From Silvanigrellaceae bacterium (GTDB taxonomy: Bacteria; Bdellovibrionota_B; Oligoflexia; Silvanigrellales; CANGWC01), in NCBI GenBank assembly GCA_947457515.1, contig CANGWC010000009.1, positions 1 to 32,790 on the forward strand: 32,790 nt of DNA, in the 5' to 3' direction. Positions 8,902 to 31,623 of this stretch are shown one piece after another. The translations under genes and the position numbers were made by a program. Every line of letters begins with the position of its first letter. Positions within the stretch are counted from its first letter, which is position 1. The notes beneath the pieces were generated by a model. The model was given only the letters and a program-made list of their open reading frames with translations. It was not told the DNA's origin and did no database searches.

Positions 8902-9906
8902 ATGAGTACGCCGGAAAAACAGTATATTCTGATTGTTCTTTGTGCAGGCCTAGGCACACGGTTACGGCCCTTAACAGATCTGATCCCAAAGCCAGTCATT
9001 CCTATATTATCTCAACCACTTGCAACATATACGATCAATAAACTTCTCCCTTTAGGTGATGTACATATCAATACCTTTCACAAAGCTTCTCAAGTGCGAG
9101 AAGAGGTCAATACATACTATCAAAAGCACCCAAATCCCTCCCATTATTCTATCCATTACCATGATGAGAAGGTCCTTTTAGGGACCGGGGGAGGTATTTT
9201 TAATATCTGTGAAAACATTAAAAAACAAAGTAATATTAAGAGTTTAGATAAAGATATTATTGTGATGTCCGGGGATATTTACACTCAAATGGACTTTAAT
9301 CAGATCATCCACTACTGGGAAACCCAATGTCAGGATGCAGGAGCCTTAATGACAGTTCTATCTCTGACAGAACAAAGAGATGATGCCTTAAGTGTTAATA
9401 ACGGCCTGGTTGTAGGTTTTAATGGTTTAAAGTCTCAATCTAACTCTATAGGAACAAAAGAACTCAGTGAGCCTTTAAATGAGTCTGAGAAAGAAAATCA
9501 TTCTATGATGTTTTCTAATTTTCAGATCATATCCCATAAGCTTTATGAAAAAGCTATTTCCTCCTATAAAGAACCACCAGTGATTTCTAGCGTTTCTTTG
9601 TTTTATCAAAAAGCAATCACAGAAAAACTTCCTATCATTGCTTATGCAGATGAGTCACCCTGGTTTAATGTGGGTGATCCTTCTGAGTATGCAGCTTGCT
9701 TAAGCAGCATAGGCGCGCCTTATCAAGACTACGCATGGCAAGCTGGATGCTTGCAGTGTCCTCTAGAGGATAATCTTGATTATCCTCTGGTGACAGATCT
9801 CTCCTATAGCCCTTATCGGGTTGAGATCACAGGATCTTCTAACCTTTCTTATCAAAGGTTATCTTTGAGTTCTACTCTACTGTTGCGCCTTCAGTATTTA
9901 AGTTAG
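8902..9906 (+). CDS. murU: MurU-type sugar-1-phosphate nucleotidyltransferase
   Basis: An NDP-sugar pyrophosphorylase-fold enzyme of 334 residues. The N-terminal signature CAGLGTRLRPLTDLIPKPV (14-32) is complete, as are LLGTGGGI (94-101), the metal-site MSGDIY (122-127) and the late WFNVGDPSEY block. Next to amgK this is best read as MurU, which converts MurNAc-1-phosphate and UTP to UDP-MurNAc, bypassing MurA/MurB de novo steps. It is about 100 residues longer than typical MurU; much of the excess is a C-terminal tail of about 65 residues after the WFNVGD block and an internal insertion near 175-200. AGGAAG lies 8 nt upstream of the ATG. The 3' end overlaps the convergent LysM gene by 35 nt. 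Substrate specificity is inferred from the pairing. Confidence 0.75.
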   Translation: MSTPEKQYILIVLCAGLGTRLRPLTDLIPKPVIPILSQPLATYTINKLLPLGDVHINTFHKASQVREEVNTYYQKHPNPSHYSIHYHDEKVLLGTGGGIFNICENIKKQSNIKSLDKDIIVMSGDIYTQMDFNQIIHYWETQCQDAGALMTVLSLTEQRDDALSVNNGLVVGFNGLKSQSNSIGTKELSEPLNESEKENHSMMFSNFQIISHKLYEKAISSYKEPPVISSVSLFYQKAITEKLPIIAYADESPWFNVGDPSEYAACLSSIGAPYQDYAWQAGCLQCPLEDNLDYPLVTDLSYSPYRVEITGSSNLSYQRLSLSSTLLLRLQYLS

Positions 9907-10933
9907 CATTAGCTAATTCTTCTGATGCATTAGCATTAGCTATATTATTATCAGAGACAGTTTCATTTGAGTTAACCACTTCTGGTTGTGCTTCCTCAGG
10001 TTTAGCTTCTTCTGCTACCTTAGTTGCAGGAGCTTCAACAGATGCTGTTGATACGGTTCCCCATTCTACATAATTTAGAACTTGACCCACTCTTAATTGA
10101 TGTGGATTTTTGATTTCTGGATTCATTTTCCATAAAGAACGCCATTGACCTTGATGTCCATAAACTTTCTTAGAAATAAGAGAAAGACTTTCTCCTTTTT
10201 GTACAGTTACTGTTTTCTTAGGAGCCATTTCATATTGTTCAGAGAAACCTTTAGATCTTTCATCTAGAACATAGAAAATCACATCTCCAGCATAAACTTG
10301 GTCAGGATTTTTTAGATGATTAACTTGAGCAAGTTCTTTCCAACGAGATTTATCACCAAATATTTTTTGTGCAATCACACCTAAGGTATCTCCACGAACA
10401 ATATGGTAAGCCATCTTGGAACCTAATTCAGGAATAGCACTTGCGCCAGATGATGCAGTTCTAGTTTCTTGAGGAGCGGTTTGAGTGACTTCTCCAACAG
10501 ATCCTTCTGGTTTAGCTGCATCCACAACAGGAGCAGCAGCATCCGCAACAGGAGCATCTGTAGGGGCAGGAGGAGTGCCATCTACACCAGCTACAGGAGC
10601 AACGCCGTCAGTAGGGGCAGGAGGAACAAGATTTTCAGGGGGAACAGCTTCTTCACCAGCATTTAAAGCAGTATTTTGGACCTCTACGGGAGGAGTCGTA
10701 GGGTTTTCCGCAGTAGGTGTTTCACTGTTAGTATCTGCTTCAGGAGTAGAACCGTCCGCAGGGGCAGAACCGTCTGCAGGAGCAGAACCATCGGCAGGTG
10801 CTTCTTCAGAGGAACCATCGGATGTAGCTTCAGTAGCTTCATCCTCAGTAGGAGAATCTGTAGATTGGCAGAATTGAATAGATAGAGTTAAGCTTGTTAA
10901 ACAAAGCAAAACTAGGTGGCGAAGACTTTTCAT
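9872..10933 (-). CDS. exported double-LysM protein with low-complexity linker
   Basis: A 353-residue envelope protein from the ATG at 10933, which has AAGGA about 8 nt upstream; the open frame continues to 11017 but without a signal-like start. A hydrophobic export segment (5-20) ends in IQFCQS. A Pro/Ala/Asp/Glu-rich linker (about 24-170) follows, containing three near-identical APADGS units. Two LysM domains come next: 175-222 (YHIVRGDTLGVIAQKIFGD...) and 241-289 (TVQKGESLSLISKKVYG...). The C-terminal tail is Ala/Asn/Glu-rich. LysM binds glycan chains of peptidoglycan, so the protein probably tethers to or works on the cell wall. No catalytic domain is visible. It lies between the wall-sugar salvage pair and the division cluster, facing away from rsmH. 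Confidence 0.85.
   Translation of the reverse strand: MKSLRHLVLLCLTSLTLSIQFCQSTDSPTEDEATEATSDGSSEEAPADGSAPADGSAPADGSTPEADTNSETPTAENPTTPPVEVQNTALNAGEEAVPPENLVPPAPTDGVAPVAGVDGTPPAPTDAPVADAAAPVVDAAKPEGSVGEVTQTAPQETRTASSGASAIPELGSKMAYHIVRGDTLGVIAQKIFGDKSRWKELAQVNHLKNPDQVYAGDVIFYVLDERSKGFSEQYEMAPKKTVTVQKGESLSLISKKVYGHQGQWRSLWKMNPEIKNPHQLRVGQVLNYVEWGTVSTASVEAPATKVAEEAKPEEAQPEVVNSNETVSDNNIANANASEELANANLNTEGATVE
10748..10801. repeat. three tandem 18-bp units in the LysM gene linker
   Basis: Three imperfect 18-bp copies beginning AGAACCGTCCGCAGG, AGAACCGTCTGCAGG and AGAACCATCGGCAGG on the plus strand. They encode the repeated APADGS hexapeptide of the LysM protein on the minus strand. Differences are mostly at third codon positions, so protein-level selection has kept the units while the DNA diverges. 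Such a repeat can expand or contract by slippage in frame. Confidence 0.85.
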
Positions 10934-11036
10934 AATAGATTCCTTGATTCCATCCTTTAGAATAGGTATCGACAGGTGACGGTTGCACTTTAAGGAATAC
11001 CTTTGAAGTCCTCTCAAAAAGAAAGACCTGCAAAAA

Positions 11037-19632: not shown

Positions 19633-20766
19633 ATGTTTGAACCTAATTCCTTGATACCCCATGCGGTCATTAAGGTTATCGGAGTGGGTGGCGGTGGCTG
19701 CAATGCCGTGAACACCATGATAGAAGCTGGTTTATCTGGTATTGATTTTGTAACAGCAAATACGGATGTTCAAGCGTTACATAAAAGTCAGGCTCCTATT
19801 AAAGTTCAATTAGGAAGACAACTCACAAAAGGACTAGGTGCAGGTGCAAATCCAGATATCGGTCGTGATGCAGCGTTAGAAGATAAAGCTATTCTTCAAG
19901 AAGTCCTACAAGGATCAGATATGATCTTTATCACTGCAGGAATGGGTGGAGGTACCGGAACAGGTGCAGCTCCTATCATTGCGCATATTGCAAGAGAATT
20001 AGGAGCACTTACCGTTGGTGTTGTCACTAAACCTTTTGATTTTGAAGGTAAAAGACGTAAGAATGCTTGTGAAAGAGGGATAGAAGAACTTAAGTCTTCT
20101 GTGGATACTCTTATTACGATCCCTAATCAAAGGATCCTGAATTTAGCTCCTGAAAATCTTTCTGTATTAGATGGGTTTAAATTAGCTGATGATGTTTTAT
20201 TGAATGCTGTTCGTGGGATCTCTGAAATCATTAACGTTCCCGGAAGAATCAACGTAGACTTTGCTGATGTCAGAACCATCATGTCAGAAATGGGAATGGC
20301 TTTGATGGGAATCGGATCTGCTTCAGGAAATCAAAGAGCTTTGGAAGCAGCACGTATGGCGATATCCTCTCCTCTATTAGAAGATGTGGATATTCACGGT
20401 GCCACAGGCATTTTAATGAATATCACTGGAGGAAGTAATTTAACTCTACATGAGATCTCTGAAGCTTCTTCTTTGATTCAACAAGCGGTCCATGAAGATG
20501 CCAATATCATCTTTGGAACAGCTATTGACGACACTATGGGAGATTTTATTCGAATCACCGTGATAGCTACAGGCTTTGATAAACCAAACCCTTTAACACA
20601 GGTTAATTTACCTCATAATAAGAATATTATTATCCCAACCCATACTGAAACACTGCAACAACAGTTAACTCAGATGACATTTCAAAATTCCAAGACCCCA
20701 TGGGAAGATCCTTTGTTTCAGTTAGCCAGAGATCTTGATAAAGAAGATATGGACAGTTTCACTTAA
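19633..20766 (+). CDS. ftsZ: cell division GTPase FtsZ
   Basis: FtsZ is the tubulin-like GTPase that forms the division ring. The 377-residue protein has the nucleotide-binding [11 protein letters not shown] (17-27), TANTD (41-45), the tubulin signature [12 protein letters not shown] (103-114), [10 protein letters not shown] (133-142) and the T7-loop [11 protein letters not shown] with Asp212. The GTPase body ends near 318. The linker is short (about 40 residues) and the end reads [21 protein letters not shown], which does not match the usual D-I/V-P-x-F-L-R/K C-terminal peptide bound by FtsA and ZipA. AGGAG lies 5 nt upstream of the ATG. The stop overlaps the stop of the convergent downstream gene by 4 nt. 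Confidence 0.97.
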
Positions 20767-21212
20767 TCTTCAGATAGGGAAGTATAAATAATACTTGGAA
20801 TGTAAATATTTAATTCTTTTAATGTATCCAAAAGATTAAATTCTTCTGCAAAATGGGAAGTATTTAAATGAATAATTAAACCTCTATGTGTTTGAAGTGC
20901 ATCAGTGAAATCAGTTAGATGTTTTTGCCTATCATCTGTCCCAACTAACTCGATATATTTCTCAGCACTTTCAATTATTGATTTAACTGACTGAGTAAAT
21001 TCAGTAAGTTGATTGTCTGTTATAATACTCCTATCTAACATTATGTTAGGAATATTTAAAATTAAGATCTTATTACTTAAGGCATTTTCAATAGGAAATG
21101 GAATGAAGGTCTTATCACTTAAGGTAGCATCAATAGGGTATGGCAAACTATAAGCTGTATCTACGGTAGATAACATGTTAAATATTATTGATAAAATAAT
21201 AAAAATATGCAT
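20763..21212 (-). CDS. small exported protein, single copy of the island's helical domain
   Basis: Unknown family. From the ATG at 21212 (GGAGAA 7 nt upstream; the frame is open to 21227) the protein has 149 residues and a clear signal peptide ([14 protein letters not shown]..., cleavage probably after TVDTA or AYS). Residues about 53-149 align by eye with the second repeat of the protein at 22890-23960. Both have IP near the start, an IT..QL...SVK.II..A helix, L.DF..A...H..L, and end DTL...N.Y..SIIY..LS. No cysteines, so not disulfide-rich. It is convergent with ftsZ, sharing 4 nt. A promoter-like pair lies upstream. It probably acts outside the cytoplasm; function unknown. Confidence 0.7.
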
Positions 21213-21238
21213 ATAAAAATTCTCCATTTAAAATAAGA

Positions 21239-21381: not shown

Positions 21382-21996
21382 TTATTCTTGAGAGGTTGGA
21401 ATCTCTTGTGGAATTGTGGGAGCAAAATATTTTATTGCTGTTCTTAATATTTTTTGCGTATTTGGATTGATAATAAGTTTAGGTTTTTTAAGGGCGGATA
21501 CTTCTTTTTCAATGAGGTTGCTCAATCGAAACTGTTCTTTCCAAAGTAACATATCTATATCTAAGTTTCTTTCTCTCAGCAAAAAATTCATAAGAAAAAG
21601 GATATAGGCTGGATATTTTGTCCATATAGCCTCTGGATTTATTTGATTAAATCTTGCAATCGCACAACCTTCTATGAATAGTCTGTAGTTTTTGAGTGCT
21701 TCGTAGAGATCAGTCATAATTGTATCTTTTATTTCTATAGCCAAATATGCAGCATCGAAGAATCTATTCATGAGTCGAGTAGCTTCGGAGATATCGGCTT
21801 TTTGAATAAGATTAAGCTCATGTAGCTTTTTAGGTATATTTAAAAGCTCATCTTCAATTCTGAGAACTGCATGAGGAAAACTATCTACAGCGAGATCCTC
21901 TATATGTATCGATATGACCTGTATATTTTGACTTTTATGGGCATACCCAGATACAAAAAGTGTATTTAAAGCAATGGATAATATTAATAAGTACAT
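21382..21996 (-). CDS. exported protein, divergent member of the same island family
   Basis: Unknown family, 204 residues. The signal peptide (MYLLILSIALNTLFVSGYA, cleavage probably before HKS) is strikingly like those of the two neighbouring minus-strand genes (M-Y/H..., LSI/LSL, then N six to eight residues on). The mature part is helical. Residues about 53-110 (NIPKKLHELNLI...ISEATRLMNRFFDAA, then DLYEALKNYRLF) fit the start of the domain shared by the other two, but with low identity, and the C-terminal SIIY-type end is not visible. The tail is Pro-rich. AGGAT lies 4 nt upstream of the ATG. Divergent from the alkD-like gene. Function unknown. Confidence 0.6.
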   Translation of the reverse strand: MYLLILSIALNTLFVSGYAHKSQNIQVISIHIEDLAVDSFPHAVLRIEDELLNIPKKLHELNLIQKADISEATRLMNRFFDAAYLAIEIKDTIMTDLYEALKNYRLFIEGCAIARFNQINPEAIWTKYPAYILFLMNFLLRERNLDIDMLLWKEQFRLSNLIEKEVSALKKPKLIINPNTQKILRTAIKYFAPTIPQEIPTSQE

Positions 21997-22848: not shown

Positions 22849-22893
22849 ATTTTTTAGGATTTGAATATAAGTTATTTTAAAACAATAACTTAT
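22842..22893. terminator. two inverted repeats between convergent genes, possible bidirectional terminator
   Basis: The first perfect inverted repeat, ATCCTAAA-TTT-TTTAGGAT (22842-22860), overlaps the end of the alkD-like gene. The second is a 10-bp perfect stem ATAAGTTATT with AATAACTTAT and a 7-nt loop (22867-22893), overlapping the stop of the minus-strand gene at 22890. Both stems are AT-rich and neither is followed by a long T run, so termination is plausible from location but not certain. Confidence 0.45.
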
Positions 22894-23960
22894 TCGGATT
22901 TTGAGTTTAGTTGAGCTCTTAATTTATCTAAAAAATCAGGATTTATATCAAGATAATCTCTTATTTTTTCTGCAATTGCAGTCTGTTGCGTTGCTTTTAT
23001 TTGGTCTCTTAAAGGGTCTAAATCAAAAATAATATTTGAAAGACGTTTATATATAATAGAAGAAACATAAAGATTTTGAGCTATTAAGGTATCTATATTA
23101 TAGTTTTCTTTAGGAATTAATGTTTTTAATAGACTTTCATGGTCACTGACAGCTGAATTAAAATCAACTAGACCTACTTTAGCCACCTCTGAGGGATCCA
23201 GATGACTAGCATTAAGAGCAGCTTTAATGATCTTCTTAACTGAAGCCTCAATAGCCTCTAATTGATCTGGGGTTATGAAGCCTCCGTTAACAAGTCCTTG
23301 AGGAATAGATTCAATTACTGATAAATTTTTTATGGTATTTTGAATGGTATAAAACTCTGACGGAGATGTAAGATAGCTTCTTGGAAAGGAATCATGCATA
23401 TAAAGAATTTCTTCATTAGGAGTCTTTAAAGGGATAGAACCCTTACGAAATTGTTCCAAAAAGTGATGAGTAGTTGACTTTAATTGACCATCTTGAGGCC
23501 TATAAAATTCAATTGTTCCGCCTGTAGGCTCAATAGGATGATTGTTTTCTAGAGAAGAGCTAACTATAACAAAAATATTAGCATCCATATTTTTTAAAAA
23601 TGCCATCAATTCTGAATATTCAGCTGAAATTCTATAGTCATCTACATTCATTGTTTCATAACTTTCGCTATTAGCATGAATGAGTTGAGCTAATAAATTC
23701 TGATAAGTGGTAACGGCTGTCATAACATTAGAATGATTATTATCCCTTGCAGCTTCAATGATAATGGAAATTGCATTCTGAAGAGTCTCAACTTGTTTTG
23801 TAGATATTTTATCCATTGCTAATAATAGTCCAGGTATCCCTTCAAAATCTGCAGCGTTGGCTAAAACACTTTCAACTGCTGGAGATTGACCTAAGTCAGC
23901 CGCACTCGCTGAAATAGAAACCATATTTAAAATTAAAGATAAAACTATAGAAAGATACAT
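22890..23960 (-). CDS. exported protein with tandem copies of the island's helical domain
   Basis: Unknown family, 356 residues, with signal peptide MYLSIVLSLILNMVSISASA cleaved probably before ADLG. Two related segments can be aligned by eye: about 41-139 and about 218-309. Each begins IP.L/..L, then a T..Q.E...A-S-I/K..I..A helix, a region ending L..L, and a hydrophobic V-S-S/I helix. The second copy (FITPDQLEAIEASVKKII, DFNSAVSDHESLL, NLYVSSIIYKRLS) is very close to the 149-residue protein at 20763-21212. Residues 140-217 form a linker, and 315-356 a helical tail. AGAGG lies about 7 nt upstream of the ATG. No enzyme motif is visible; a structural or interaction role outside the cytoplasm is inferred. 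Confidence 0.7.
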   Translation of the reverse strand: MYLSIVLSLILNMVSISASAADLGQSPAVESVLANAADFEGIPGLLLAMDKISTKQVETLQNAISIIIEAARDNNHSNVMTAVTTYQNLLAQLIHANSESYETMNVDDYRISAEYSELMAFLKNMDANIFVIVSSSLENNHPIEPTGGTIEFYRPQDGQLKSTTHHFLEQFRKGSIPLKTPNEEILYMHDSFPRSYLTSPSEFYTIQNTIKNLSVIESIPQGLVNGGFITPDQLEAIEASVKKIIKAALNASHLDPSEVAKVGLVDFNSAVSDHESLLKTLIPKENYNIDTLIAQNLYVSSIIYKRLSNIIFDLDPLRDQIKATQQTAIAEKIRDYLDINPDFLDKLRAQLNSKSE

Positions 23961-24018: not shown

Positions 24019-25212
24019 TTAAGAAGGTTCTATGATTTTCTCTAAAAACACTTCTATATTATTTTTAAAATCGAATAAATCTTTTCCATTTAATTCAGTC
24101 ATTTGAGATCGAAGAGACTCTTTCTCAAGAGAACTTAAGAAAGAAAGATGTTTAGGATCAGTTAAAAGAAGATGAAGTTTCTGAAGGGAATCTTCCAAGT
24201 TCTCAGAAGACTTCCAGAAGAGATCTCGTTTTTGAGAGGGATAAGATAAGAAATGTTCATCTAAAACAGTATTTTTCTGATAAATAACAGGTAGTCCTGT
24301 CAAAGCAGCTTCCACAGGAACAAGGCCATAACCTTCACCTAGGCTGGGATGAAGGAGAACATCGGATGCCTGATAAAAATCATAGAGAGAAGAATCTTCC
24401 ACAAAAGGTAAGAGTAAAGTGTTATTAAGAAGTTGATTTTCTTTGTGATTTCCAATGTGTATGAATACAGAGGGTGTTTTATCGGCAATAGATTGAACGA
24501 TTTGGGAACCCATTTCCCAGTTTTTATAGAGGGCTTTTCTTCCTACTCCTAGGATCCATTTATGGAAAAGTAAGGCTTCAGGAATAGAATACTTTTGGAT
24601 GAGTTCTTGTCTTAAAGATTGTCTTTTAAGCTTAGAATAACGGGGTTCAGAACCAAACTTAGGATCAATTCCATTAGGCACAATGGTGATAGAAGATTTT
24701 AATTTAGGGAAATGCTTTATCAGAGAGTTTTTGGAGAATTCAGAAACCGTAACAATGGGCACACCTTTTTCTAGGTTAGATTTTAAGGTGAGAAAAAAAT
24801 GATTTCTAAATAGAAAACTATGATCTTTAGGAAAATCAAGGGGTAAAGTATCATGGATCCATTGAATTGTTTGAAGAAATCCTGCTTTTTGAGGGGACAA
24901 TCTTGGAACATCAGTATTATCTAACGAAAGCCATAAAAACGGTTCTTTGAGTTCAAGGGAGAGTTGATTCCAAACCTTGGTAGCCCAAACAGAGGGAGGG
25001 AGTTTTTTACAGAGTGGGAAATACTCATGATAGTAAATATAATTTGCATCTATCGGAAGATAATCAGGTTTTCTTAAGGAATTATTAACAAATATGAGCT
25101 TAAAAGATTTTTCGACAGAGAGTTTGAGTAGAGATTTAGCTATGCTTTGAAGAGTACGGGAGATTCCATAACCTTGGTTTCCGCAACGAATATCAAGGAC
25201 GATCCATTTCAT
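24019..25212 (-). CDS. GT4-type glycosyltransferase
   Basis: A GT-B-fold glycosyltransferase of family 4 (glycosyltransferase group 1), 397 residues from the ATG at 25212. Visible are the N-terminal beginning IVLDIRCGNQGYGISRT, VSEFSKNSLIKHFP with VPNGID (the mid-protein donor-domain entry), ILGVGRKALYKNW, and the EX7E-type block SLGEGYGLVPVEAALTGLPVI. No membrane segment. The frame is open to a TTG at 25233, but the Met at 25212 gives the conserved N-terminus. Either start lies inside atpC, so the gene is cotranscribed with, and translationally coupled to, the ATP synthase operon. Acceptor unknown; lipopolysaccharide or another surface glycan is a guess. Confidence 0.8.
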   Translation of the reverse strand: MKWIVLDIRCGNQGYGISRTLQSIAKSLLKLSVEKSFKLIFVNNSLRKPDYLPIDANYIYYHEYFPLCKKLPPSVWATKVWNQLSLELKEPFLWLSLDNTDVPRLSPQKAGFLQTIQWIHDTLPLDFPKDHSFLFRNHFFLTLKSNLEKGVPIVTVSEFSKNSLIKHFPKLKSSITIVPNGIDPKFGSEPRYSKLKRQSLRQELIQKYSIPEALLFHKWILGVGRKALYKNWEMGSQIVQSIADKTPSVFIHIGNHKENQLLNNTLLLPFVEDSSLYDFYQASDVLLHPSLGEGYGLVPVEAALTGLPVIYQKNTVLDEHFLSYPSQKRDLFWKSSENLEDSLQKLHLLLTDPKHLSFLSSLEKESLRSQMTELNGKDLFDFKNNIEVFLEKIIEPS

Positions 25213-25456
25213 ATTGATGAGTCTCATGAACAATTAAAGTCACTTTATTATCCAAAACTTTTGCAAAGCCGTCGGAAATAAAGAGAAATTCAGAGACCTC
25301 TCCTTGAGTAAAGTATGCCGGACCAGAAGAAATTTCGCAAACAAATGAAGCATGATCTTCTAAAATTTCTACCATACCTTGTGGAGTATGAAATGAAATC
25401 TTCTCGTAGAAGCCTTCTAGAGCTGAACCTGTAGGGGTGATGATTTTAAGATCCAT
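25193..25456 (-). CDS. atpC: F1 ATP synthase epsilon subunit, short form
   Basis: Epsilon belongs to the central rotor stalk. This one has only 87 residues: the N-terminal beta-sandwich is complete (LKIITPTGSALEGFYEKISFHTPQG, about 3-27, with LEDHASFV and the ISDGFAKV strand), but the C-terminal two-helix domain, which inhibits ATP hydrolysis in E. coli and Bacillus (total about 135), is absent. The frame ends at a normal stop inside the 5' end of the glycosyltransferase gene, so loss looks fixed and not like a sequencing break. It follows atpD by 5 nt. Confidence 0.9.
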   Translation of the reverse strand: MDLKIITPTGSALEGFYEKISFHTPQGMVEILEDHASFVCEISSGPAYFTQGEVSEFLFISDGFAKVLDNKVTLIVHETHQYEMDRP

Positions 25457-25461
25457 AAGAG

Positions 25462-26889
<1,428 letters not shown>

Positions 26890-27786
26890 TTAAAGAGCCT
26901 CAGCTCCACTAATGATCTCACTGAGTTCATTGGTAATGGCAGATTGTCTAGCTCTTTGATAGGTAATTTGCAAGCGTTTTTGAATTTCACCGGCATTACG
27001 TGTTGCATTATCCATAGCAGCCATACGAGCTCCCTGCTCGCTTGTATAGGCATTCATAAGAATAAAATAAAGTTGAGATTGTATCAGATCTACACTGAGA
27101 GAGTGTAGAAAATCAGAATCAATCAAAGGTGCAAAATCTGTAGATATCTCTTCAGATAAGCTCAAAGGGATAAGTGTTTCTTGTTTAGGAACTTGAGAAA
27201 GCGCCGAATAAAATTGATTATAAATAAAATTTAATGAATGGAATGGGAATAGTTTTTTAAGATCACAAATTTTTCCAAAAAAATCTTGAGCAGTAGAAAA
27301 TGTTGGATTTTCCCAAGCAAAAGAAAGATAAATAGGAGAAATAGGGTAGTGAGAAGCTGAATTTAATAATTGAGAAGAAAGATCTTCTAAATCAGACTCT
27401 TTAATATAACTTCCATAATTTTTCTGAATAGATGCAATTCCTCTTTTACCTAGGAAAACAAATGGACCTTGAGCTGTAGAAGGAAGAATCTTAGTCAAAG
27501 AGTTATTATACCCTCCACAAAGACCTCTATTTGTGAAAAGAGCAATGGATAATGGAGGTGCTTCAATAGGTTTAACCCATTCTAATTGAAGCATTCTTTG
27601 ACGTATTGCAGGGTAAGAAGAAAGAAAAGTCCAAAGACTTTGTAGCTCTGTGTAAAAATGTTTAACTTGATGAAATTGATGTAAAGACTTACCAAACTTA
27701 GCCGTAGAAACAAGTTTCATGGCTTTAGTTATTTGGGAAGTACTTTTAATACTCTTAAGTCTAGTACGAAGTTCTTTAAGGCTCAT
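26890..27786 (-). CDS. atpG: F1 ATP synthase gamma subunit
   Basis: The rotor shaft of F1, 298 residues. The N-terminal helix (LKELRTRLKSIKSTSQITKA then MKLVSTAKFGK) and the C-terminal helix (SEQGARMAAMDNATRNAGEI...ITNELSEIISGAEAL) that form the coiled coil are strongly conserved; the central Rossmann-like part has FTNRGLCGGYN. Located between atpA and atpD with short spacers. Nothing unusual apart from a divergent middle region. Confidence 0.96.
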   Translation of the reverse strand: MSLKELRTRLKSIKSTSQITKAMKLVSTAKFGKSLHQFHQVKHFYTELQSLWTFLSSYPAIRQRMLQLEWVKPIEAPPLSIALFTNRGLCGGYNNSLTKILPSTAQGPFVFLGKRGIASIQKNYGSYIKESDLEDLSSQLLNSASHYPISPIYLSFAWENPTFSTAQDFFGKICDLKKLFPFHSLNFIYNQFYSALSQVPKQETLIPLSLSEEISTDFAPLIDSDFLHSLSVDLIQSQLYFILMNAYTSEQGARMAAMDNATRNAGEIQKRLQITYQRARQSAITNELSEIISGAEAL

Positions 27787-27807: not shown

Positions 27808-29328
27808 TTAAATGTCATGATTTTCAAATTTTTTGTCAAAATCTTGAAGGATTGTACGAAGGTTTTCCATAAATTCTTTAGACATTTTTTTGCCATCAGC
27901 AATAGATTCTAAAATATCAGAATGATTTAACCGGAAGTATTCCAACATAGATTTTTCATAAGAAGCTAACATATTCAGATCTTTTTTATCCAAAAAGCCT
28001 TGAGTTGCAGCAAATAAAATCAGGATCTGACTTTCCACAGCTAAAGGAGAATATTGTTTTTGCTTTAAAAGCTCCGTTAGTCTTTGTCCCCGGACAAGTT
28101 GTTGACGGGTTGCAGCATCAAGATCTGAGGCAAATTGAGAAAACGCTTGAAGATCTCGGTATTGAGCAAGTTCCAATCGAAGAGTTCCCGCAACCTGTTT
28201 CATAGGTGCTGTTTGAGCAGAACCACCCACACGAGAAACGGATAATCCAGCATTAATAGCAGGTCTTACACCACTATTAAAAAGATCAGATTCTAAATAG
28301 ATCTGGCCATCGGTAATGGAGATCACATTTGTAGGAATATAAGCTGAAACGTCACCAGCTTGTGTTTCAATAATAGGAAATGCAGTTAAGCTGCCTGCAC
28401 CTAATGAATCACAAAGCTTACAAGCTCTCTCAAGAAGACGACTATGTAGATAAAAGACATCTCCAGGATAAGCTTCCCTACCTGGTGGTCTACGTAAGAG
28501 CAATGAAACTTCTCTATAAGATTGAGCATGTTTAGTGAGATCATCATAGACAATCAACGCATGTTCACCGTTATCTCTAAAGTATTCTCCCATAGCGACA
28601 CCGCTATAAGGAGCAAAAAATTGAAGAGTCGCTGAATCTGAAGCGCTTGCCATAACCACTATGGTATATTCTAATGCGTTATATTTTTTGAGTTTCTCGA
28701 CAAATTGAGCAACAGTGGATGCTTTCTGTCCAATAGCGACATAGATACAGAAAATACCTTTGCCTTTTTGATTGAGGATTGTATCTAGTGCAACAGCAGT
28801 TTTCCCTGTTTGACGATCTCCAATAATCAACTCACGTTGGCCTTTGCCGATGGGAATCATGCTATCTATAGCTTTAATTCCTGTTTGGAGAGGTTCATGA
28901 ATCCCTTTTCGAGTCATAATTCCAGGAGCTTTTGTCTCCACAGTACGAAATTCAGTGGTCTCTAAAGGGCCAAGACCATCGATAGGTTCACCTAAAGGAT
29001 TTAAAACTCTTCCTAAAAGAGCTTTACCTACAGGAACTGAATTTAATTTATGAGTTCGTCGAACTTCCATCCCTTCTTGGATGGTGGAAGAATCTCCAAA
29101 GATAGCGATTCCTACGTTATATTTCTCAAGGTTAAGGACCATGCCTTTGACACCATTATCAAATATAACAGTCTCACCACTCATAGCCTGATCAAGACCA
29201 TAAACACGGCAAATACCATCGGCGATAGAAATAACAGTTCCGACTTCGAGAAGAGAACTCTGAGAAGATGAGTTAGCGATTTTTTGAGAAAGAATATCAA
29301 TAATTTCTGTAACTTCAGGTTTTTCCAT
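27808..29328 (-). CDS. atpA: F1 ATP synthase alpha subunit
   Basis: The non-catalytic nucleotide-binding F1 subunit, 506 residues. Visible: [10 protein letters not shown]-type N-terminal barrel (here [12 protein letters not shown], 36-47), Walker A GDRQTGKT (170-177), the Walker B region [41 protein letters not shown], and the arginine-finger area [11 protein letters not shown]. The ATG has AGGA 6 nt upstream. It follows atpH after 7 nt. Confidence 0.98.
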
Positions 29329-29335
29329 GATTTTC

Positions 29336-29845
29336 CTATAGATTTAAAAGAGTCGAAGAGAAAAATTTCAAACTACCATCTATCACAAGATGGTTAATTT
29401 TTACAATACATCCAGCTCTGAGGCTTGGATCAACATTCTCTTCCCACTCCCACTTTGTTTTGGGGTATTGAGTGATGAGTATATTTTTTATAGCAGAAGA
29501 ATCAGCTTCTGAGGGAGGTAAAGCCCAAATAATTTTTACAACAAAAGTTCCAAAATATTCACGAATCAATTGAGGATAAACTTTTAAGATTTCAGTAAAA
29601 ATACGGTAACGAGATTTTTCAATAATCAGTTTAAAGAAGTTTAATGTAATAGGAGAAAACCCTAGTTTTTCAAAAGACTCTTTTAGAGTTAGCCATTTCT
29701 CTGAAGGTGTTATCTTAGGATGATTTATAAACTCAGTGACTGCAGGAGTCATAATTTGTTCTAAAAGCTTCATTTCTTTAAAACATATTTCTTCAGAGGC
29801 AGAGTTTTTAAGCCATGAGAGAACATAAGGAGATAAAACTTTCAT
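29336..29845 (-). CDS. atpH: F1 ATP synthase delta subunit
   Basis: Delta joins the peripheral stalk to the top of F1. The 169-residue protein has the N-terminal helical bundle ([16 protein letters not shown] region) and the conserved segment [20 protein letters not shown]. The C-terminal strand/helix end is [20 protein letters not shown], close to the family's 'DPsLiGGf.iri.d.viDgS'. Its ATG overlaps the stop of the fused b'-b gene by 4 nt. It precedes atpA in standard order. Confidence 0.93.
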
Positions 29846-30801
29846 GAAACATAATCTCCGATAGAATTTTTTTCAGATAATGTATCAAGAGTTTTATTTT
29901 TAAGTTTTTGATCTATTTTAGAAATATTATCAGTAATAAAAGAAGAGTTCATAAGATCATTAAGGATCTTTTTTTCAATAGAAAAGAGCAGTTCTTTCCT
30001 ATAGTTCTCAAATCTTAAATGATAACTTCCCTGGAGATAATTAATGCTTTCTTCAAAATTTATTTGAATTAAAGTTTTTTCTTTTTCCCAGTCTTGCCAG
30101 AATTTCTCTTTATAATTTTCAAGATCTTCAGATAAAGAAGCCATTTTGATATCTAAAGAACTTGCTTCTTTTTGAGCTTCATTCAAGCTTTCTAAAGATT
30201 CAGAAAGATGAGTTTTGAGTTCATCTCTATTCTTCATAAGCATGTTTTTTAAGGGTTTTTTACCTAAAAAATAAATAAAAACAAGAAACCATGCAAATTG
30301 ATAATAAGGCCAAAAAATAGCCTCATCACTGGAAGAGAAAGCATAAGGGGTCCATAACCCAAATATAATCACTGGAAGAAGTTGTTGAGAGAGTTTTTCC
30401 CAAAGAGACTTTTGAATACTTTTATAATGACTATCATCTAAGGATAAACTTTTTTGAAGTTCGTCTTGAGACTGTTTTAAGTTTTGAAGATAATTTGCTT
30501 CTATTTGAGAAAGACTTTGAGAAAGAAGTTCAAGATGAGCTTTTTTTAAAGCTTCCTTTTCTTTACGAAGATTTTCTTTGAGATGACTAAACTCTGTCTC
30601 TATATCTTTTTTGATTTGTAAAGATTTTTCAGAGAGTCTTTTTGCTTCTTCTTCTCTTCCCAAAGTCCTTTTTCGTCTTTCTATACTAAGAGCTGAAAGA
30701 GGTTTAAGAAGAAAACGATGAGTAATAAAAGCTGATAGAAGGAATGCAGCTCCTTGAAATATCAGACGTTCATCAGGAATGAGGTTAAAATCTGCGGACA
30801 C
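29842..30801 (-). CDS. atpF: fused ATP synthase b'-b subunit
   Basis: One open frame of 319 residues carries two Fo b-type subunits. The first half (1-125) has a membrane helix (about 13-33), FLLKPLSALSIERRKR, then a long charged coiled coil, as in b'. A second hydrophobic region follows: a signal-like helix LLPVIIFGLW (141-150), then YYQFAWFLVFIYFLGKKPLKNML (166-188), the b signature, and a second coiled coil to about 290. Delta-proteobacteria usually carry separate b' and b genes here, the latter often with a signal-like N-terminus. No internal ATG with a ribosome site lies at the junction; the only candidate is a GTG at Val144. The gene start is GTG at 30801 with GGGAG very close. It overlaps atpH by 4 nt. 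Confidence 0.85.
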   Translation of the reverse strand: MSADFNLIPDERLIFQGAAFLLSAFITHRFLLKPLSALSIERRKRTLGREEEAKRLSEKSLQIKKDIETEFSHLKENLRKEKEALKKAHLELLSQSLSQIEANYLQNLKQSQDELQKSLSLDDSHYKSIQKSLWEKLSQQLLPVIIFGLWTPYAFSSSDEAIFWPYYQFAWFLVFIYFLGKKPLKNMLMKNRDELKTHLSESLESLNEAQKEASSLDIKMASLSEDLENYKEKFWQDWEKEKTLIQINFEESINYLQGSYHLRFENYRKELLFSIEKKILNDLMNSSFITDNISKIDQKLKNKTLDTLSEKNSIGDYVS

Positions 30802-30876: not shown

Positions 30877-31623
30877 TTAAGCCACGGCTTCTAGAGATTT
30901 GAAAATCGAGTATTGAGAAGCTAATTTTAAATGATCTTGAAGAGTCCCTCTCGAGATACTGAGAATTTGACTTGCTTTCACAACACTACAACCCTGGTGG
31001 TGATAAACATAGTAACTCAGAGCTGCTTTAAGATATTGATGGGGATGGATATTTTGATGAATCACTTGTTCAAAAAAATCATGAGGTAGAGATGGATTCA
31101 GTTTTTTTTGGATTAAAGATAAATGATTCTTTAAAAGAGAATTACCTTTTTCATCATCACCTAAAACACCATGATAAAAAGCAAGAGAGATAGTAATATC
31201 AATGAGTTGTTTTAAAGAAGCTCCTTGTTTCATTAAGAGTTTAATTTTTTGAAGTTTAGGGGCATCAAAAATATCTATAAAAAGATCTAATTTAAAAAAC
31301 TCTAGTATTTGTATGATCATATGATGTGGACTTGAAATCAGTAAATTCCAATCAAGATGAAAGAGAGTAATAAAACCCCAGCCTTCAGGAGGAGGTTCTT
31401 GAGATATCACAATAGCAGGCAAAGATGATTGGTCGAAATTCCAATCTGTATGAAATCGATGAAGATCATAAGACTCATGGAAGAAAGGAATTAAAAGATT
31501 CTGAATCTCTACACTGCTTGTGTGAATATGGATATTAAACTTATTTTGGTGACAAGAAATTGCATGATCTACTATTTTTTGAATATTCTTGTTACAAATG
31601 AGATTATAAAGATGGGAATACAT
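30877..31623 (-). CDS. unknown protein with C-terminal Fis-like helix-turn-helix
   Basis: A 248-residue protein I cannot name. Its last 40 residues (about 208-236, QGCSVVKASQILSISRGTLQDHL) fit the Fis/NtrC-type helix-turn-helix (family: 'n.t.AA..LGIsR.TLyrkL'). Residues 1-120 may be a degenerate AAA-like or receptor-like domain, but no Walker motif is present; 125-205 is helical. No signal peptide. ATG has AAGGA 8 nt upstream. It is divergent from parB across a gap of about 180 bp and precedes the ATP synthase operon by about 75 bp on the same strand. A local transcription regulator is a reasonable inference. Confidence 0.6.
   Translation of the reverse strand: MYSHLYNLICNKNIQKIVDHAISCHQNKFNIHIHTSSVEIQNLLIPFFHESYDLHRFHTDWNFDQSSLPAIVISQEPPPEGWGFITLFHLDWNLLISSPHHMIIQILEFFKLDLFIDIFDAPKLQKIKLLMKQGASLKQLIDITISLAFYHGVLGDDEKGNSLLKNHLSLIQKKLNPSLPHDFFEQVIHQNIHPHQYLKAALSYYVYHHQGCSVVKASQILSISRGTLQDHLKLASQYSIFKSLEAVA

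Follow-up and report, generated by a model that had tools for sequence, protein, structure and literature searches.

A single-frame b'-b fusion of the ATP synthase peripheral stalk in Silvanigrellales, most likely a processed precursor, with an independent counterpart in a second phylum

Results

The atp locus

The window, by which we mean the whole analyzed stretch of 32,790 nucleotides from a Silvanigrellaceae bacterium, contains atpH-atpA-atpG-atpD and, directly upstream of them, a fused atpF'-atpF gene; all features described here lie on the reverse strand. The fused gene (29842-30801) starts with GTG and forms one intact frame of 319 codons (319 aa) with no internal stop. It overlaps by 4 bases with atpH (29336-29845), which encodes the delta/OSCP subunit (PF00213, E=9e-26), and this is followed by atpA (alpha, 27808-29328; 65% identity to its best named relative), atpG (gamma, 26890-27786; PF00231, E=9e-64) and atpD (beta, 25462-26871; assigned by sequence). 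As delta has its own ORF at 29336-29845, the fused chain carries no delta domain and is not a b-delta fusion (AtpFH). The genome is a draft of 1.17 Mb in 68 contigs, about 74% complete, in which a subunit a gene was also found and the genes for alpha, beta, gamma, delta and a are all intact. The fused gene is the only atpF-like locus found in it, with no second match at E<=10.

Upstream, the fused gene is adjoined by a gene (30877-31623) with a Fis-like helix-turn-helix at the C-terminus of its product and an N-terminal part that belongs to no family. This gene encodes 248 aa in the window versus 274-285 aa in relatives from the order, is conserved at this place in the forward-oriented loci of the order that we inspected, and appears to be peculiar to the atp locus of the order. 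Downstream of atpD, the interval 24019-25461 holds a glycosyltransferase-like gene (24019-25233); atpC (epsilon) does not adjoin atpD. Elsewhere in the window, we observe three predicted secreted proteins with no Pfam family above cut-off (20763-21227, 21382-21996 and 22890-23960), the first and third of which share a similar stretch (IIKAALNASH.. in one) and possibly form a lineage-specific paralogous group, as well as a LysM-like secreted protein (9872-11017) whose repeat region is long and rich in Ala, Pro and Glu (ADGSAPADGSAPADGS).

Two complete modules in one frame

Judged by its sequence, the frame at 29842-30801 contains a whole b' and, after it, a whole b subunit. Both halves consist of an N-terminal membrane helix and then a long coiled-coil helix. 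The b' module (30388-30801, residues 1-138), delimited by a profile match to the PDB and by length comparison, has its membrane segment at 30712-30768 (about residues 12-30), with no K or R before it and a K/R-rich stretch after it, as for an N-out/C-in orientation. The predicted mature b subunit (29842-30333, residues 157-319) has its membrane segment at 30256-30318 (about residues 162-182, IFWPYYQFAWFLVFIYFLGKK), which scores below a simple hydropathy threshold because it is rich in W and Y. Between the two helical modules lies an internal signal-peptide-like segment (30334-30402, residues 134-156), reading WEKLSQQ, LLPVIIFGLW and TPYAFS in turn.

The assignment of the two halves draws on several comparisons. 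The Pfam family ATP-synt_B (PF00430) matches residues 162-242 of the window protein (E=1.2e-5; 25.8 bits against a gathering cut-off of 28), and the first half is unrecognized by Pfam; in relatives G001 and L153, the same family matches two stretches each, at 51.7 and 108 bits, respectively. When a profile of the order's fusions is compared with the PDB, positions 5-144 match b subunits and positions 185-299 match chloroplast b. The residues that are invariant in the order are retained in the window protein, namely P and ER..RT.G in b' and WPY-QF and SE in b. These results bear out the sequence-only reading, which had seen two membrane-anchor and coiled-coil modules in one frame and had placed them where delta-proteobacteria have atpF' and atpF. 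Many NCBIfam b and b' models match the fused relatives twice, and the alignment of the b model PRK08475 with relative L150 begins at model position 4, on the internal signal. No b'-b fusion is described by any NCBIfam model that matched, and the curated models that fit the fused proteins best are named simply "subunit B" or B', so that automated annotation will probably overlook the fusion.

Distribution and two origins of the fusion

Every one of the order's 15 genomes (families f1 and f2) carries a single uninterrupted b'-b frame of 319-339 aa. The class, which here equals the whole phylum, contributes 43 more genomes, and none of those with a match shows a b'-b fusion: they have two separate hits, halves parted by a stop, or one half only. 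Five class genomes returned no match to the fused protein.

A second set of fusions is found in the phylum of Centralia_MAG_33, where b' and b share one frame in 11 of the 395 genomes searched (319-329 aa from a b'-type start). In a tree built from b' and b with the join left out, the order's fusions group with unfused members of their own class (100/99), and those of the second phylum group with their own phylum (96/92). One origin of both fused groups, including by gene transfer, is rejected by the AU test (p-AU 0.0002), and the fusion therefore arose at least twice. The branch of the window protein is very long (2.9 changes/site), and its composition is odd. No fusion was found in 399 genomes of the phylum to which a Rickettsiales record belongs, 58 from a Dadabacteria phylum or 24 from the phylum of L039 and L040, all at a score limit of 1e-25 that very divergent fusions could escape; nor does a fused b'-b occur among 80 named atpA loci from other phyla. 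The b'-b fusion is thus real, conserved and convergent.

The join resembles a signal peptide

The sequence-only reading had pointed to LLPVIIFGLW at the join as a signal-like stretch; this stretch is indeed present (residues 141-150), and its equivalent is conserved in the order. In both sets of fusions, a basic b' end is followed by a hydrophobic core, a small-x-small signal peptidase I motif and then the b membrane helix. The charges around the join predict three membrane segments, oriented N-out/C-in, N-in/C-out and N-out/C-in. Across the family, the join thereby has the features of a signal peptidase I substrate: a basic n-region, a hydrophobic core and a small-x-small c-region that is predicted to face the periplasm. 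In the window, the predicted cut falls after S156 (AFS/SSDE, the slash marking the cut here and below), and the position of the segment and the class of its motif are kept in 15 of 15 genomes of the order.

The join motif was found by a simple motif scan rather than with SignalP. In all 13 distinct relatives, [AG]x[AGS] begins 15-18 residues before WPYFQF (shuffled mean 4.6, maximum 10), the variants being AFA, AMA, AYA, ARA, ALA, AHA, AVA, ASA, AQG, GQA and ALS. Strict AxA accounts for 10 of the 13, against a shuffled mean of 1.0, and none of 5000 shuffles reaches 10. The concentration of AxA at the join is the densest of the whole fused protein, and the middle residue differs from one protein to the next, which fits a signal peptidase I site. 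The window motif is weaker than those of its relatives, with A-F-S at -10 as compared to AxA at -15 to -18 and a shorter linker; relative G014 has A-L-S.

In the second phylum, 11 of 11 fusions have a hydrophobic core and then a small-x-Ala motif (shuffled mean 1.8; 0/2000 shuffles reach 11). By eye, the sites read SYA/SEEGG, VFA/GGGG, ALA/STEGG, AGA/APEGG, AFA/SAGGD, ALA/SGGGG, VFA/SAGGE, AFA/AEREE, ASA/STEGG, VMA/STGGE and AFA/SESEH, with the automatic choice differing by a few residues in five of the 11. In the unfused genomes L162-L165 of this phylum, b is a protein of its own and begins with a signal of the same type. A type I signal peptidase gene (PF10502, E=7.5e-44) is present in all 14 genomes searched, the window's included.

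Within the window's class, the separate b of L016-L030 has no signal peptide, and one is present in L031, in Campylobacterota and in L162-L165. The signal was thus either lost here or gained elsewhere, and the segment at the order's join could be newly made instead of inherited.

Discussion

A precursor that is probably cut

The fused gene probably encodes a two-subunit polyprotein with three membrane segments that signal peptidase I would cut into b' and b. The b' helix would insert N-out/C-in, its coiled coil being made in the cytoplasm; the internal signal peptide, of the kind that heads a separate b elsewhere, would then insert N-in/C-out, and b's own helix would follow N-out/C-in. Signal peptidase I would cut on the periplasmic side, behind the small-x-small motif, yielding a mature b with a normal N-out end. 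Such a cut would leave the signal on the C-terminus of b', which predicts a second clearance step: the remnant would be removed by another protease, or tolerated, before b' reaches the top of F1. In E. coli, signal remnants are cleared by RseP-type enzymes. We infer the cleavage itself, the order of these events, the clearance of the remnant and the benefit for stoichiometry, in which a 1:1 ratio of b' to b would be set at synthesis and not by a covalent link. The broader proposal, in which maturation in both phyla needs signal peptidase I and then intramembrane clearance of the b' signal remnant, is tentative and falls somewhat short of an even chance. If it holds, ATP synthase assembly in these bacteria would depend on secretion proteases and would have a built-in 1:1 supply of b' and b.

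The geometry of the stalk is consistent with a cut. The b' part measures 139-146 residues in 24 of 25 fused proteins and 136 in the window, and free b' in relatives measures 142-146, from which it appears that a whole b' has been joined to a whole, signal-bearing b without a linker. In known enzymes, the C-termini of b and b' lie near the top of F1 with delta. A full-length b' should therefore end far from the membrane, yet the residues that follow must enter it, and this conflict makes an uncut chain hard to reconcile with the known stalk. With an alignment of 15 rows, the AlphaFold model of the window protein is weak (pLDDT 68), and with 23 rows that of G001 (pLDDT 76) has helices at 13-139 and 189-310 and leaves the join undetermined.

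Alternatives

The most serious alternative, which we consider unlikely, is an uncut covalent b'-b heterodimer that spans the membrane three times and fixes a 1:1 stalk, with the internal segment serving as a permanent extra membrane helix. A single frame and a charge pattern that suits three membrane segments would both be expected of such a chain, and the weak cutting motif in the window also speaks for it. For a plain membrane helix, however, a small-x-small motif at the outer end would be superfluous, and both independent fusions keep one; the b' part matches a free b' in length, and its end is thus expected at the top of F1 and not at the membrane; and the G001 model consists of two long helices connected by an undetermined stretch. 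For the mature enzyme, the covalently fixed 1:1 stalk put forward in the sequence-only reading is accordingly doubtful and probably wrong, given this motif and this length. The same reading had held that the second half must either cross the membrane once more or be cleaved internally, and on this point it is supported.

The window copy might instead be a decaying version in a reduced genome, that is, a real fusion with degenerate processing or stalk assembly. This would account for the very long branch and odd composition of the protein, the failure of Pfam to recognize its first half, the shortened linker and the weaker motif. We regard it as improbable for a frame that is intact and keeps the order-invariant residues, in a genome with intact genes for alpha, beta, gamma, delta and a. 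The weaker A-F-S of the window, the A-L-S of G014 and the very long window branch do count against the cleaved-precursor reading, and processing may have decayed in reduced genomes.

It is very improbable that b is made separately from the same mRNA by internal initiation at the join. The window has a single in-frame start codon in the 60 codons before its b membrane segment, the GTG of V144 (30370-30372), and some relatives have scattered candidates at no conserved position. The GTG has no Shine-Dalgarno sequence, and a start there would cut into the hydrophobic core. In G001 and L158, the 60 codons before the b membrane segment contain no ATG, GTG or TTG at all, on which ground internal initiation is rejected as a shared mechanism. 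Among the other relatives, the only Shine-Dalgarno sequences are GGAGG in L006 and GGAG in L012, before start codons that are not shared. Since the first half has no stop, the fusion would be made anyway, whatever the extent of internal initiation. The prospect of relatives with two genes matched by an internal start here, raised earlier as grounds for abandoning the fusion, has not materialized: relatives in the order are fused, and the internal start is unconserved.

Finally, a stop or frameshift between two genes that was lost through an assembly or sequencing error, the other objection foreseen from the sequence, has a negligible chance of explaining a frame that, despite the window belonging to a 68-contig draft, recurs in the order's 14 other genomes, of which two are assembled into a single contig each; with all 15 sharing it, the fusion is no frameshift artefact.

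Relation to known systems

Taken together, the fused protein is most likely a processed precursor, and the separate origins of the same fusion suggest that some bacteria produce an essential stalk pair as a joint precursor that is later split. Because the stalk is indispensable and its architecture well characterized, a fused precursor raises a clear question that experiments can answer. The recurrence of one cutting motif in two independent fusions amounts to a natural experiment on the equal production of heterodimeric stalk subunits, and it also bears on polyprotein processing in bacteria, of which we know of few examples.

We found no description of a b'-b fusion in the literature searched, a body that leaves most subscription journals outside its scope. 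The passages found in the work that traced the 0B/0B' duplication (PMC4154653) do not mention one, and a review of peripheral stalks mentions no fusion of any sort. The closest counterparts are the AtpF' and AtpF of cyanobacteria and chloroplasts and of alpha-, delta- and epsilon-proteobacteria, which have the same two modules in the same order and at the same place before atpH-atpA. In those groups, they are encoded by two genes and build a heterodimeric peripheral stalk, whereas here they form one frame without a stop. The b subunits with an N-terminal signal, from Campylobacterota, L031 and L162-L165, likewise have a hydrophobic core and a small-x-small motif just before the b membrane helix, the difference being that the signal in the fused protein is internal and directly follows b'. 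The b-delta fusion of actinobacteria (NCBIfam NF009961, subunit B/delta) is also a natural fusion of peripheral-stalk subunits, with another partner; delta is a separate gene here. A parallel for the proposed processing comes from FbcH of Bradyrhizobium japonicum, a cytochrome b-c1 polyprotein that signal peptidase reportedly cleaves at an internal signal, as shown experimentally. FbcH belongs to another complex, and its cleavage is experimental where ours is predicted from the join, but in both cases two subunits of one energy-converting complex are encoded as one chain with an internal, and here putatively, cleavable signal.
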